Source of the DNA: Synechococcus sp. WH 8016
GTDB taxonomy: Bacteria; Cyanobacteriota; Cyanobacteriia; PCC-6307; Cyanobiaceae
NCBI RefSeq assembly: GCF_000230675.1
Contig: NZ_AGIK01000001.1
Coordinates: 620,001-684,000 of the forward strand
DNA: 64,000 nt
Direction of reading: 5' to 3'
Positions 7,478 to 16,771 of this stretch are shown here, piece by piece; position 1 is the first letter of the stretch; every line of letters starts with the position of its first letter. Under the pieces are notes generated by a model that was given only the letters and a program-made list of their open reading frames with translations, had not been told where the DNA came from and searched no databases. The position numbers and the translations under genes were made by a program.

Positions 7478-7568
7478 TCAGGGCCAAATAGGCCACGCCG
7501 ATCAGCACAGACACAATCCCTGTGACGATGGCCACCCAGCGGCCGCGTTGCTGCTTGGGAGCCGCCAT
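7368..7568 (-). CDS. Small single-span membrane protein, unknown function
   Basis: A 66-residue protein with a basic N-terminus (MAAPKQQRGR), one strong hydrophobic segment (about residues 12-32) and a proline-rich tail. Its ATG overlaps the TAA of the upstream decarboxylase (TAATG), a sign of translational coupling. The last 110 bases lie antisense to the end of the GTPase gene. No known domain was recognised, and the function may relate to the decarboxylase only by context. Confidence 0.65.
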   Translation of the reverse strand: MAAPKQQRGRWVAIVTGIVSVLIGVAYLALITVLDARGPMRPPPPEALVGVVSASLPSGAMALPPA

Positions 7569-9022
7569 TAGGGCCGAACCTCCACGGATTGATTCAGAGC
7601 TGATGCCAGTTGATCCAACAAACCGTCATGGGTGTGGGGGTTGCCAAGGACAGCCTTGAGGTGATGCCGTCCCTGATGGAGCGGCCTCGATACCATGATG
7701 CCCTGGCTGAGCAAGAGCCGGCGTGTCTCGATCGACCAGCTTTCGTGCTGCTGCGCCTGTCCTCGTTGCGGCCGACAGGCGAGCACATGCAAAGGGCCCG
7801 AGAGAATCATCAGCCTGTTGGGATCCAGTTGTTGCTGGAGGTACTCACGGCGAGCAATCGCAGCGGACAACACCTGCTCAATTCCCGATTCACCAAGTTG
7901 CCGCAAACCAAGCCAGAGTTTGAGCACTTCCGCGGGACGGCTTCCCTGCAAACCCAGTTCTCCGCCGTGATCGTGCTCGAGGGCTGGCTCCATGTAGGGA
8001 AGACCTGTGGAGAAAGCTTCGGCCAGAACGGAGGGATTGCGAACCAAGAGAAGCGATGAGGTCTTTGTGATGCCGAGAACTTTCTGAGGATTCACGGTGA
8101 TCGAATCAGCGCGAGCAATCCCATCGAGAAGATGGGTGCTGGTGGGACTAAGAGCAAAAACAGCCCCTATCGCCCCATCCACATGCAGCCAACGACCCAA
8201 GCGGCTGCAGAGATCAGCCAACGCAGAAACAGGGTCGATGGCTCCTCGCACCGTGGTGCCTGCTGTCGCCACCACGGCGATACAAGGGCGACCTTCTCTT
8301 GAAAGCGCTGTTAATTCATCCTCCAATTGCTGCAGATCAATGCGTCCTTGCCCATCCACCGGGATTTCACGGACTGCGTCGTTTTGTAGCCCCATCACCC
8401 GCGCTGCCTTGTGCCAGGACACATGCGCATCAGCACTGACCACCACCACCGCATCTGGCGTGTGGTCCAAGCCAGCGTGATGGCGAGCGGCCACCAAGGC
8501 GATCAAATTGCTCAGCGTGCCGCCACTTGCCGCAACACCAGAAGACCCTGCAGGAAAGCCAATGCGCTCAGCAAACCAGGCGCAAAGCTGCCGTTCGAGA
8601 TGGCTCAAACTGGGAGACAGCTCTTCGGCCAAAAGGTTGTTGTTCAGCCCGGCGCAGATCAAATCTGCAGCGATCGACGCACTCAGCGGCGGCGGATCGA
8701 GATGGGCAATCGCCCCGGGGTGGGAAGGCTGAAACGCCCCATCCATCACCTGCTGAAGGTCATCCAGAAGTTGCTCCATGGTGCGGCCATGGGTCTGCGG
8801 AGCAGCATCTGGCAGCACCCGAAGTGCTGGCAAAGGACCCCTCTCAGCCGCCGAACCGATCCAGTTGCATAAGCGCTCGGAAGCACCCTCCAAAAACTGA
8901 AGGAGTTGAGGGTCAAGCGCATCGGGTGAAGCAAACGCCGAAAGAGCGACCGGTTCAGGATTCTTTGAAGGTCCGACCAAGAAGACAAGATGGGGAATGA
9001 TCATTGTCCCCTGTGGTGGCAC
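7568..9022 (-). CDS. Group II PLP-dependent amino acid decarboxylase
   Basis: A 484-residue protein of the glutamate / aspartate / 2,4-diaminobutyrate / aromatic decarboxylase family. Supporting motifs are the N-terminal HPGAIAHLDPPPLSA, the glycine loop SSGVAASGGTLSNL, the histidine that stacks on the cofactor in SADAHVSWHKAARV, WLHVDGAIGA, and the PLP lysine in NPQKVLG. The exact amino acid cannot be told; candidates include aspartate (to beta-alanine for CoA) and diaminobutyrate. The start is uncertain because a second in-frame ATG lies six codons downstream (MIIPHL). It is divergent from tadA with only 45 bases between starts, and coupled to the small gene at 7368. Confidence 0.87.
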   Translation of the reverse strand: MPPQGTMIIPHLVFLVGPSKNPEPVALSAFASPDALDPQLLQFLEGASERLCNWIGSAAERGPLPALRVLPDAAPQTHGRTMEQLLDDLQQVMDGAFQPSHPGAIAHLDPPPLSASIAADLICAGLNNNLLAEELSPSLSHLERQLCAWFAERIGFPAGSSGVAASGGTLSNLIALVAARHHAGLDHTPDAVVVVSADAHVSWHKAARVMGLQNDAVREIPVDGQGRIDLQQLEDELTALSREGRPCIAVVATAGTTVRGAIDPVSALADLCSRLGRWLHVDGAIGAVFALSPTSTHLLDGIARADSITVNPQKVLGITKTSSLLLVRNPSVLAEAFSTGLPYMEPALEHDHGGELGLQGSRPAEVLKLWLGLRQLGESGIEQVLSAAIARREYLQQQLDPNRLMILSGPLHVLACRPQRGQAQQHESWSIETRRLLLSQGIMVSRPLHQGRHHLKAVLGNPHTHDGLLDQLASALNQSVEVRP

Positions 9023-13683: not shown

Positions 13684-15186
13684 ATGTCAATAATCCCTCT
13701 CGAAACCGAGCTCTCCTCTCTTTACGCCCTCTTTGATATCAATGGCGATGGGGCCATCACGCCAACCGAAGTGGAGCAGGTGCTGAACTCCATGTCGGGG
13801 ATCATCGCTGAACAGGAAGCCAAGGCCCTTCGCCAGTTCATAGATAGCCAAGCTGATGTCAGCCGAGAGGACTTTCTGCGCTGGGCAAGCAAGCAGCCTG
13901 GGCTGGGAACCCATCAGTTGTTGAGAGATCTGTTTCAGCTGGTCGATACAGATGGGAGCGGGTGTCTCAGTCACGATGAGCTTTCGTTGATGGTGTCGCT
14001 ACTGGGCACAGCAGAAGCATCCATCGATTCCCAGGAGTTGCTGGAGAGGCTTGATCGCGATGGGAACGGACGGATCAGCGTTGATGAGTTTTTAACCCTG
14101 CTCGAAGACCACAACCGCCTCAATTGCTCCCTTGCAGACCTCAAACGTTTAAAGAAAAGCCTGGTCCAGATCAGCAGCACGGCTGGGCTGAGTGGAGTCA
14201 GTCTTGTGGAGGTGGACTGTGACCTGGGAGCGGGGAAACCCGGCGCAGGTGCAGGCATTGAAATGCTCAAAAGTGCTGTCAAACACCAACAAGATCTCCA
14301 AAAAATGAGCGCAGGCTTAATCGCCGAGATTCGAGAGGGGCAAACACCATCGGCCCATGCCGCTACCACAGGAAAAAGCACCACACCCCACGCTCGTCAC
14401 ATCAAAACCATCGCTGGCGTGATGCAGGACGCAGCGAATTTGGTGTGCAGCACGCTTCAGCAGCAGAGCTTCCCAATCGTCCTTGCGGGAGACCACTCCA
14501 CCGCCGCCTCAACAATTGCAGGGATCCGTCGTGCCCATCCACAGTCGCGGCTTGGGGTGATCTGGATCGATGCCCACGCTGATATTCATTCTCCGTTCAC
14601 GACCCCTTCGGGGAATATGCATGGGATGCCCTTGGCGATCGCCTGCGGGCACGACAACCTTTCCGAGGCGATGAATGATCCAGACCCTGTCACCCGACAA
14701 CTCTGGAAGGATCTGCAGCAACTGCACGGTCTCGAATCTGCAGCGATCGACTTCGGTGATCTGATTTATGTCGGCGTCAGAGACACCGAGGCTGCTGAAG
14801 ACGCCACCTTGGCCCGTTATTCCATCCCAGTGATCAGCACTGAGGAGGTGAGAGGCGATGGAGCCATCAATGCAGCCAACCGCTGCCTCTCCCACCTCGC
14901 CGACGTGGACCTGATCTATGTGACCTTCGATGTGGATGCGTTGGATTCAACGATCTGCAAGGGCACAGGCACCCCAGTCCCTGGAGGGCTCTGGGCCCAT
15001 GAGGCCGTTCTCCTGCTGCGCAAGCTTCTCTCAGATCCCCGCGTGTGTTGCTGGGAAATTTGTGAAATCAATCCCTACCTTGATGAGCTAAACACCCTGG
15101 CCGAGCTCTCTTTGGGGATCTTCCGGGCTGGACTGGAGGTGCTCGAGGAGCGGTTCAGCTCGAGAGCTTCATCCCATGCAAGCTGA
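13684..15186 (+). CDS. Arginase with N-terminal calmodulin-like EF-hand domain
   Basis: A 500-residue fusion. The N-terminal 140 residues hold three canonical 12-residue EF-hand loops, D18-E29 (DINGDGAITPTE), D88-E99 (DTDGSGCLSHDE) and D124-E135 (DRDGNGRISVDE), plus a degenerate one around 54-65. This is the four-EF layout of calmodulin with hand 2 lost. A ureohydrolase domain follows from about residue 175, with the manganese ligands in AGDHST, WIDAHADIHSP and TFDVDALDST. The SGNMHGMPLA motif is typical of arginases rather than agmatinases. It should hydrolyse arginine to urea and ornithine in the cytoplasm. Calcium control is inferred from the domain fusion. It overlaps the urea transporter gene by 11 bases, so urea made here can be handled by its partner. 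Confidence 0.9.
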   Translation: MSIIPLETELSSLYALFDINGDGAITPTEVEQVLNSMSGIIAEQEAKALRQFIDSQADVSREDFLRWASKQPGLGTHQLLRDLFQLVDTDGSGCLSHDELSLMVSLLGTAEASIDSQELLERLDRDGNGRISVDEFLTLLEDHNRLNCSLADLKRLKKSLVQISSTAGLSGVSLVEVDCDLGAGKPGAGAGIEMLKSAVKHQQDLQKMSAGLIAEIREGQTPSAHAATTGKSTTPHARHIKTIAGVMQDAANLVCSTLQQQSFPIVLAGDHSTAASTIAGIRRAHPQSRLGVIWIDAHADIHSPFTTPSGNMHGMPLAIACGHDNLSEAMNDPDPVTRQLWKDLQQLHGLESAAIDFGDLIYVGVRDTEAAEDATLARYSIPVISTEEVRGDGAINAANRCLSHLADVDLIYVTFDVDALDSTICKGTGTPVPGGLWAHEAVLLLRKLLSDPRVCCWEICEINPYLDELNTLAELSLGIFRAGLEVLEERFSSRASSHAS

Positions 15187-16771
15187 CCCAGCATCGATCT
15201 ATCAGCTCCTGCAAGCTCTCCTACCGCCGCCGCCAGCGCCGGTAGGAGGAAAGGGGTTGTTTGCTGAACAGCATTTCCAGGCGGGTCCCTGGGAAAGCGG
15301 TCTACGCAGCTTTTCCCAAGTGATTTTTATCAACCATCCTCTCAGTGGTGGCCTGCTGCTGCTGGCCTTTCTGATCCAGTCACCTTGGATGGCTCTCTTG
15401 GCTGTCTTAGGGATGGCTGCAGCAAACGCCGTTTCCAAGCTGCTGAATCTTGGCCAAAGCCTGCGCGATCAGGGAATCCATGGCTTCAACGGTGCCCTTG
15501 TGGGATGTGCTGCGGCAGTTCTAGCTGACTCCAGATCCGTGGTAGATGCCGGCCTGATCGCAGTGTTGGTGGCGTTCGGAGGCGGACTCACAACGCTGAT
15601 ACTCGAACTGTGGCGACGCCGCTTTCATCGCCGCGGAGACCCGCCGGCGCTCACCCTGCCGTTCTGCCTGATCACCTGGGGACTGGTGGCCTTGGTGAGC
15701 CCTCAAATACCAGACAGCATCGAAACGGTGAAAGCGGCGGCTTCACCTGGCTTCGTTCAGGCGTTGGCTTTCGGCCTTCCTCACAGCTTCGGACAGGTGT
15801 TTCTCTGCTCCGACCTGGTGAGCGGGTGGCTCGTTCTCCTGGCGGTTGCGGTCGCAAGCCCCATCGCCGCCGCGCTCGGAGCGTGTGGCGCCCTGATGGG
15901 AATGATCACCGCCTTGGCAAGCGGAGCTGACAACGCTGCTTTAGCCCAAGGGTTATGGGGTTACAACGGCGTTTTGGTGGCGATCGCCCTCGGCGGTATC
16001 TTCCACGTGCCCGGACGCAGAACCCTGATCATCGCTCTCATTGGAGCCGGGCTTGCCAGCCTTCTACAGGGTCTACAGGGGATGTTTATGGGCAGCCTGC
16101 CAGCGCTCACTCTGAGCTTCGTGCTCACAACCTGGATGCTGCAGCGTCTGGCTGGCCGAACCCTGCCGGCACTGATTCCTGTGGCCCTGCATGCCGTTGT
16201 TAGCCCTGAGGAACACCGCAAACGGTTTCTGGAAGCGAGTGAATTGTTAGGAAGCTTCCGCCGCAACTTGCGACAGAGACTGGACGGCATGGCCCCCAAC
16301 GCTGGGGGGGAACAGCCTCAAAGCGAGCTGAACAGCGAGATGCAAGCCCTTTTCGATGAGCTCGACCTGAACCGTGATGGCCACCTCAGCCTTGAGGAGC
16401 TTCGCCATGCGCTGTTGTCAGGCGGGACGAGCAAGCAAAGCCATCAGCGCCGAATCTCATCCCTCAACGATCAATTAACGGCAACGATGGCGTCGATGGA
16501 TCTCAACGGTGATGGCCACATCGACTCCGCTGAATTCAGCCAGCTCATCCAACGCTTGCAACGACTCCGGCAGGGAGAAGAACGCCTGCTGCTGTACTTA
16601 ATGCCCGTTGATGCCAATGGCAACGATCGTCTCGATCAAGAGGAATTAACACGTCTCCTGCAAAGCATCGGCCAACCGCCCCTAACCGCCGGGGAACAAG
16701 CGTTGGTGTTCCCAAACCAGCAGAAAAGTCTCAGCTGGCACGATTTCGTGGATCGCTTGTTGTTGAGCTAA
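15176..16771 (+). CDS. Urea transporter (UT family) with C-terminal EF-hand domain
   Basis: A 531-residue protein. Residues 1 to about 345 form a UT-type channel with the expected internal duplication. The first half has HGFNGALVG and PPALTLPFCLITW; the second has LWGYNGVLVAIALGG and LPALTLSFVLTTW. Hydrophobic helices fit ten or so membrane spans. The soluble C-terminal tail holds three canonical EF-hand loops, D397-E408 (DLNRDGHLSLEE), D442-E453 (DLNGDGHIDSAE) and D479-E490 (DANGNDRLDQEE), and a degenerate fourth. UT proteins pass urea down its gradient. Here the direction could be export of arginase-made urea or import. Calcium gating is inferred. The ATG lies 11 bases inside the arginase gene. 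Confidence 0.9.
   Translation: MQADPASIYQLLQALLPPPPAPVGGKGLFAEQHFQAGPWESGLRSFSQVIFINHPLSGGLLLLAFLIQSPWMALLAVLGMAAANAVSKLLNLGQSLRDQGIHGFNGALVGCAAAVLADSRSVVDAGLIAVLVAFGGGLTTLILELWRRRFHRRGDPPALTLPFCLITWGLVALVSPQIPDSIETVKAAASPGFVQALAFGLPHSFGQVFLCSDLVSGWLVLLAVAVASPIAAALGACGALMGMITALASGADNAALAQGLWGYNGVLVAIALGGIFHVPGRRTLIIALIGAGLASLLQGLQGMFMGSLPALTLSFVLTTWMLQRLAGRTLPALIPVALHAVVSPEEHRKRFLEASELLGSFRRNLRQRLDGMAPNAGGEQPQSELNSEMQALFDELDLNRDGHLSLEELRHALLSGGTSKQSHQRRISSLNDQLTATMASMDLNGDGHIDSAEFSQLIQRLQRLRQGEERLLLYLMPVDANGNDRLDQEELTRLLQSIGQPPLTAGEQALVFPNQQKSLSWHDFVDRLLLS

Follow-up and report, generated by a model that had tools for sequence, protein, structure and literature searches.

Two overlapping genes in the window (the whole 64-kb stretch of DNA analysed here, from Synechococcus sp. 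WH 8016) encode an arginase-family enzyme and a UT-family urea channel, each of which is fused to a calmodulin-like domain of four EF-hands, placed N-terminally in the enzyme and C-terminally in the channel. The conserved ligands of the hands, the adjacency of the genes and the occurrence of the pair in two cyanobacterial families support a functional pairing. From these sequence features, we lean slightly towards a reading in which arginase and channel form one calcium-responsive nitrogen unit, with calcium changing both activities together.

The gene coordinates, the residue numbers of the EF-hand loops and the 11-base overlap given in the initial annotation proved exact, as did its reading of one degenerate hand in each set (Table 1). 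Likewise, the EF-hand, arginase and UT domains that it had assigned were all matched by Pfam searches, with E-values far beyond chance. The arginase-family protein consists of four N-terminal EF-hands (about residues 9-146), a linker helix and the arginase domain; in the UT protein, the channel (residues 41-322) comes first, followed by a linker helix and four EF-hands. The two helices, at residues 150-167 and 344-369, are predicted between EF and functional domains by AF2 models (arginase: 13 sequences, mean pLDDT 74.6; UT: 26 sequences, mean pLDDT 77.6). The arginase linker is basic, yet other stretches of the protein are more amphipathic; conserved residues of the UT linker are P344, E345, E346, H347 and R350, and F361, R362 and L365. 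Solved arginases align to the model only from about residue 167, the UT and EF parts match separate entries, and no EF-fused arginase or UT entry was present among the solved chains matched to the models.

Table 1. Features of the arginase-UT gene pair (window coordinates) and EF-tagged 5'-nucleotidases of other genomes (locus coordinates)
Feature	Position	Strand	Basis
EF-hand arginase-family gene, 500 aa	13684..15186	+	ORF and Pfam, AF2 fold match
Arginase EF-hand loop 1, D18-E29, canonical	13735..13770	+	ligand consensus in 17/18 relatives
Arginase EF-hand 2, ~residues 53-64	13840..13875	+	degenerate in all aligned relatives
Arginase EF-hand loop 3, D88-E99, canonical	13945..13980	+	18/18 relatives
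Arginase EF-hand loop 4, D124-E135, canonical	14053..14088	+	18/18 relatives
Basic linker helix, residues 150-167 (LADLKRLKKSLVQ...), conserved	14131..14184	+	AF2 helix, alignment
Arginase catalytic domain; H271, D296, H298, D300, D416, D418, E461, SGNMHGMP	14197..15096	+	PF00491, relatives, Z 30
UT-family urea channel gene with C-terminal EF-hands, 531 aa	15176..16771	+	ORF and Pfam, AF2 fold match
11-base overlap, arginase gene/UT gene	15176..15186	+	ORF coordinates
UT channel domain, residues 41-322; pore Q48, T160, Q207, T312	15296..16141	+	PF03253, Z 41
UT linker helix, channel to EF domain, residues 344-369	16205..16282	+	AF2 helix
UT EF-hand loop A, D397-E408	16364..16399	+	29/29 relatives
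UT EF-hand loop B, D442-E453	16499..16534	+	29/29 relatives
UT EF-hand loop C, D479-E490	16610..16645	+	29/29 relatives
UT EF-hand 4, degenerate, ~512-523; conserved W521, C-terminal LLL	16709..16744	+	relatives' alignment
EF-tagged 5'-nucleotidases	L125:2600-4297, L127:5427-7091, L128:3570-5270, L126:2243-3986		metallophosphoesterase and 5_nucleotid_C

Neither an NtcA site by the strict consensus GTA-N8-TAC nor, by consensus, a sigma-70-like promoter was found for the operon in its upstream region. The three GTA-N8-TAC motifs of the 64-kb window, none of them upstream of the pair, do not exceed the count expected by chance, and NtcA control of the operon was rejected as a candidate. Elsewhere in the window (7568-9022), a PLP decarboxylase gene has L-2,4-diaminobutyrate decarboxylase as its best match, at 182 bits against a 900-bit cut-off.

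The EF-hands themselves are well defined. In Pfam searches, the arginase-family protein matches PF13499 (1.2e-16) and PF13405 (9e-18), and the UT protein matches PF13499 (9e-16); chance motif matches are ruled out as their source by E-values of 1e-15 to 1e-18 and by retention across relatives. EF-hands are not a common feature of the strain's own genome either (2.69 Mb, 99.5% complete), where PF13499 has four matches (E<=0.001), all within the arginase and UT genes. Each protein has three canonical 12-residue loops in paired hands, and these are kept in relatives: among 29 UTs, position 1 is always D, position 12 is always E and 87/87 loops fit the ligand consensus, as do 53 of the 54 loops of 18 EF-arginases. 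Conservation is higher at ligand positions than over the remaining EF domain (0.84 vs 0.61 and 0.89 vs 0.57), and the EF domains, with a dN/dS of 0.10-0.38, are under purifying selection that is mostly somewhat looser than that on the catalytic cores. Because loop ligands are conserved and the domains are under purifying selection, the hands are not eroded in relatives; the survey of ligand consensus (29/29 UTs, 17-18/18 EF-arginases) rules out such erosion, which the initial annotation had raised, for nearly all of them. In the AF2 model, the A/B pair of UT hands superimposes on lobes of calmodulin and CDPKs, with about 70 residues fitting at 1.7-2.3 A. We infer from these features that the EF domains of both proteins bind calcium.

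The enzyme was initially annotated as an arginase, and its fold, Mn ligands and substrate loop agree with this. PF00491 (Arginase) matches residues 172-471 (2e-48), and the model superimposes on solved arginases with Z 28-30 (5zee_B: Z 30, rmsd 2.4 A, 253 residues). Arginases require two Mn2+ ions, and the Mn ligands H271, D296, H298, D300, D416 and D418, which align to 1cev and 2eiv, are the same in all 22 relatives compared. The substrate loop PSGNMHGMP (with N311 and H313) and the catalytic E461 are present; in the same 22 relatives most of the loop is invariant, and S309 is kept in at least 90%. On the other side, the rocF equivalog model TIGR01229 scores 189.1 bits against a cut-off of 227.6 bits, and the positions of N130 and D183 of rat arginase I are occupied here by H302 and E369, invariant in relatives. 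From family knowledge and alignments, we take N130 and D183 to be substrate-contact positions and H302/E369 to be their equivalents. The same H302/E369 pair occurs in an EF-less Bacteroidota protein annotated as arginase (Aureibacter). Given the sub-threshold TIGR01229 score and the two substitutions at the substrate site, arginase activity, releasing urea and ornithine from L-arginine, is the most likely function but no more than probable. A 2007 survey of 24 cyanobacterial genomes, in which EF-hands go unmentioned, noted two Synechocystis proteins once annotated as arginases that lack this activity (PMC2242806).

Among known enzymes, RocF of B. caldovelox (1cev) and the T. thermophilus protein 2ef4 share the fold, the Mn ligands and the SGNxHGxP loop, but have no EF domain and differ at the two substrate-site positions that are H302 and E369 in the window enzyme. 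The Fusobacterium ornithine decarboxylase/arginase (8d27) is also an arginase fusion, but with an unrelated partner. Two distant viral ureohydrolases (27-29% identity) match residues 254-481 only, with no EF part in the match, and the plasmid-borne relatives among the matches listed correspond to the catalytic part only, the best (42% identity) being from Aureibacter.

The channel belongs to the UT/SLC14 fold. PF03253 matches residues 41-322 (4e-65), and the model superimposes on 8xdi_A with Z 41 (rmsd 2.4 A, 320 residues) and on human, zebrafish and D. vulgaris UTs with Z of about 40. The pore Gln and Thr of both repeats are kept (Q48, T160, Q207, T312), as in D. vulgaris dvUT (3k3f) and human UT-A2/UT-B. 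The solved members matched showed no EF-hand domain, unlike the window UT. Against the yut equivalog TIGR03441 the protein scores 147.4 bits, the cut-off being 274.6. On this evidence, the window channel is a UT family member outside the yut subgroup, for which urea permeation is predicted. Following the known topology of the family, we take its C-terminus to lie on the cytosolic side. Of 29 relatives, all but G005, G343 and G351 keep the second-repeat Thr, T312; these three are precisely the genomes whose arginase lacks EF-hands. Because G343 and G351 are close relatives, the T312 change together with EF loss represents about two events, and the coincidence is suggestive of a linked function.

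How often the two fusions stand side by side was surveyed in 400 Cyanobiaceae genomes. An EF-arginase occurs in 21 of them, including a frameshifted copy (G075) and one split by an insertion sequence (G205), and wherever the context is readable (20 cases) a same-strand UT-EF gene follows it directly; the remaining one (G372) stops at a contig end. An EF-arginase away from a UT was never seen in these 20 contexts. The side-by-side arrangement described in the initial annotation is, in readable cases, the rule. Arginases of the same kind but without EF-hands were found in three genomes (G005, G343 and G351); two of the three stand away from a UT, and the G005 copy still adjoins UT-EF. These arginases show that the catalytic core can be maintained after loss of the EF domain. 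Matches to the UT are found in 40 of the 400 genomes, several of them broken, and fifteen genomes have UT matches without arginase; two more (G076, G222) retain arginase relics. These pseudogenes, relics and UT-only genomes indicate that loss of the arginase is frequent and visible, and since many genomes keep UT-EF without it, arginase and UT are not obligate partners.

Several individual loci of the family deserve description. In G205 (L136:7280-8818), an opposite-strand DDE transposase gene splits the EF-arginase, and the adjoining UT is intact. Truncated second copies of the UT EF-region occur at another site in G075 (L139:3773-4018) and G231 (L140:3525-4211), where they adjoin a related gene, which in G075 encodes a family 3 solute-binding protein. 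In G268 (L195:5981-7129), a UT-EF without arginase lies directly beside a same-strand alanine dehydrogenase gene. About 2 kb from the arginase-UT pair of G231 (L133:9943-11259) lies a gene for a UrtA-like amide/urea-type binding protein, which scores 444 bits to TIGR03407, under its cut-off.

Outside the family, a class-wide sample of 390 genomes yielded full-length UT-EF in seven filamentous genomes. One of the seven, G712, from a family other than Cyanobiaceae, has both arginase and UT-EF; its arginase is in two contig pieces, the C-terminal one 9 bases from the UT and the EF-bearing N-terminal one at the end of another contig. Its UT groups with filamentous UTs, and on this single genome a recent acquisition of both genes together from Cyanobiaceae is not favoured. 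In G475 (L130:4764-5390), a stand-alone 208-aa protein with four EF-hands starts like hand 1 of the G712 arginase, and the rest of it shares 66% identity with the G712 UT EF domain; it is apparently an in-frame fused relic left by an internal deletion of the arginase-UT operon. An old pair with repeated losses would best account for the distribution, with thin support from one genome and one relic.

The UT-EF has a second kind of EF-tagged neighbour. Four filamentous genomes belonging to three families (G471, G692, G614 and G666) have it in a cluster with a 5'-nucleotidase bearing C-terminal EF-hands (Table 1) and with no signal peptide obvious by eye; in three of these four, a nucleoside hydrolase is close to the cluster. 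In an independent set of 242 genomes, the EF-nucleotidase is whole only in G471, which has UT-EF, and a fragment in one other genome. As the nucleotidases of these clusters are also EF-tagged, the tag is common to channel and neighbour enzyme in two settings, and the arginase-UT pairing appears as one case of a wider pattern. Allantoicase, for a purine-to-urea route, had no match in the genomes with the 5'-nucleotidase cluster, and none in control genomes either. Separately, G471 (L172:4882-7395) and G351 (L173:857-3256) encode proteins of about 800-840 aa that combine a calmodulin-like N-terminus of four canonical hands with a region resembling Erv1/Alr-type sulfhydryl oxidases.

In the mechanism that we propose, the enzyme would act as a Mn-dependent arginase-type ureohydrolase forming urea and ornithine, the channel as a UT/SLC14-type urea pore, and the calmodulin-like domain of each would be joined to the working domain by the conserved helix. 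A rise in cytosolic Ca2+, for example a nitrogen-deprivation transient, would load the EF lobes, which would then grip or release the linker helix and shift the activities of enzyme and channel together; the transient would thus act directly on urea release and urea permeability. Helix docking, the sign of control and the direction of urea flow are inferred parts of this scheme. Nitrogen deprivation is followed by such transients in Anabaena and also in S. elongatus, a unicellular species, where they are triggered by 2-oxoglutarate and depend on NtcA (reviewed in PMC4284465). Urease, the Urt urea importer and an agmatinase-like ureohydrolase distinct from the window enzyme are also encoded in the strain's own genome; urease is found in 43 of 47 genomes, and UrtA above cut-off in 19 of 20.

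A precedent for an EF domain, an amphipathic helix and a carrier on one chain is the ATP-Mg/Pi carrier (APC/SLC25A24), likewise a transporter joined through a helix to a four-EF-hand calmodulin-like domain, in which calcium controls solute flux (locking pin) and a long helix links the two EF pairs (PMC6283063). It differs in being eukaryotic, with an N-terminal EF domain, an unrelated carrier and no EF-matched partner enzyme. CDPKs likewise carry enzyme, junction helix and calmodulin-like domain in a single polypeptide, and their calcium domains align with the UT EF domain of the window, but they are eukaryotic and have another catalytic domain. As for the calcium switch of the initial annotation, its domains stand, with conserved ligands, adjacency and a pair in two families added, and joint switching of the two proteins is consistent with all of these.

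The same evidence can be read differently. The EF domains might mainly be calcium-dependent docking modules, which would recruit the enzyme, arginase or the EF-tagged 5'-nucleotidase of filamentous cyanobacteria, to the membrane-bound, EF-tagged channel; urea could then pass from one to the other or stay near them, with control of activity as a secondary role. The invariable adjacency (20/20 readable cases) would fit docking but is a sign of co-expression, not of contact; docking is further favoured by the lack of EF-hands in the two arginases standing away from a UT, by the EF-tagged 5'-nucleotidase that neighbours EF-UT in four filamentous genomes and by the conservation of one degenerate hand in each protein, whereas the EF-less arginase of G005 still adjoins UT-EF and UT-EF often stands alone, and on balance we doubt it. 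A bolder and also improbable variant treats the EF-hand as a portable calcium tag, by which the tagged channel and either arginase or 5'-nucleotidase would be recruited and gated together in a calcium-assembled nitrogen-recycling module, which would be the first such in bacteria.

Alternatively, the hands might be constitutively filled structural elements in which bound Ca2+ (or Mg2+) stabilises the protein and switches nothing. Ligand conservation alone cannot separate sensing from structure, but a domain of the same kind is N-terminal in one and C-terminal in the other of two proteins that are linked in function and share no other ancestry, and it is also attached to a third enzyme, related catalytic cores do without it (G005, G343, G351 and the Aureibacter arginase), and a conserved helix separates EF domain and core in both proteins, all of which makes a purely structural role unlikely. 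The least likely reading is that the EF domains serve manganese, by buffering Mn2+ or delivering it to the arginase. EF-hands can bind Mn2+ weakly and the Mn2+ ligands of the arginase are all present, but the urea channel, with no known metal site, has the same domain with equally conserved ligands, and we regard this role as very improbable. Calcium control of both proteins is the reading that we slightly favour.

No paper naming EF-hand fusions of arginase or UT was found among the open-access papers searched. The nearest cyanobacterial counterpart is CSE of Anabaena, likewise an EF-hand protein tied to nitrogen metabolism. It is small, stands alone unfused to any enzyme or channel, has two hands, is almost confined to filamentous strains and has been called the sole known calcium sensor in Anabaena (PMC7065334). 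The two window proteins do not have this architecture, both being fusions with four hands each. In the available parts of the sources, the calcium transients of cyanobacterial nitrogen stress are described with no enzyme- or channel-fused effectors. If the proposed unit is real, the metabolic enzyme and the channel would be effectors that contain their own sensor, in small genomes otherwise poor in EF-hands. The pair makes direct calcium control of bacterial nitrogen use testable, in an ecologically major group of phototrophs.
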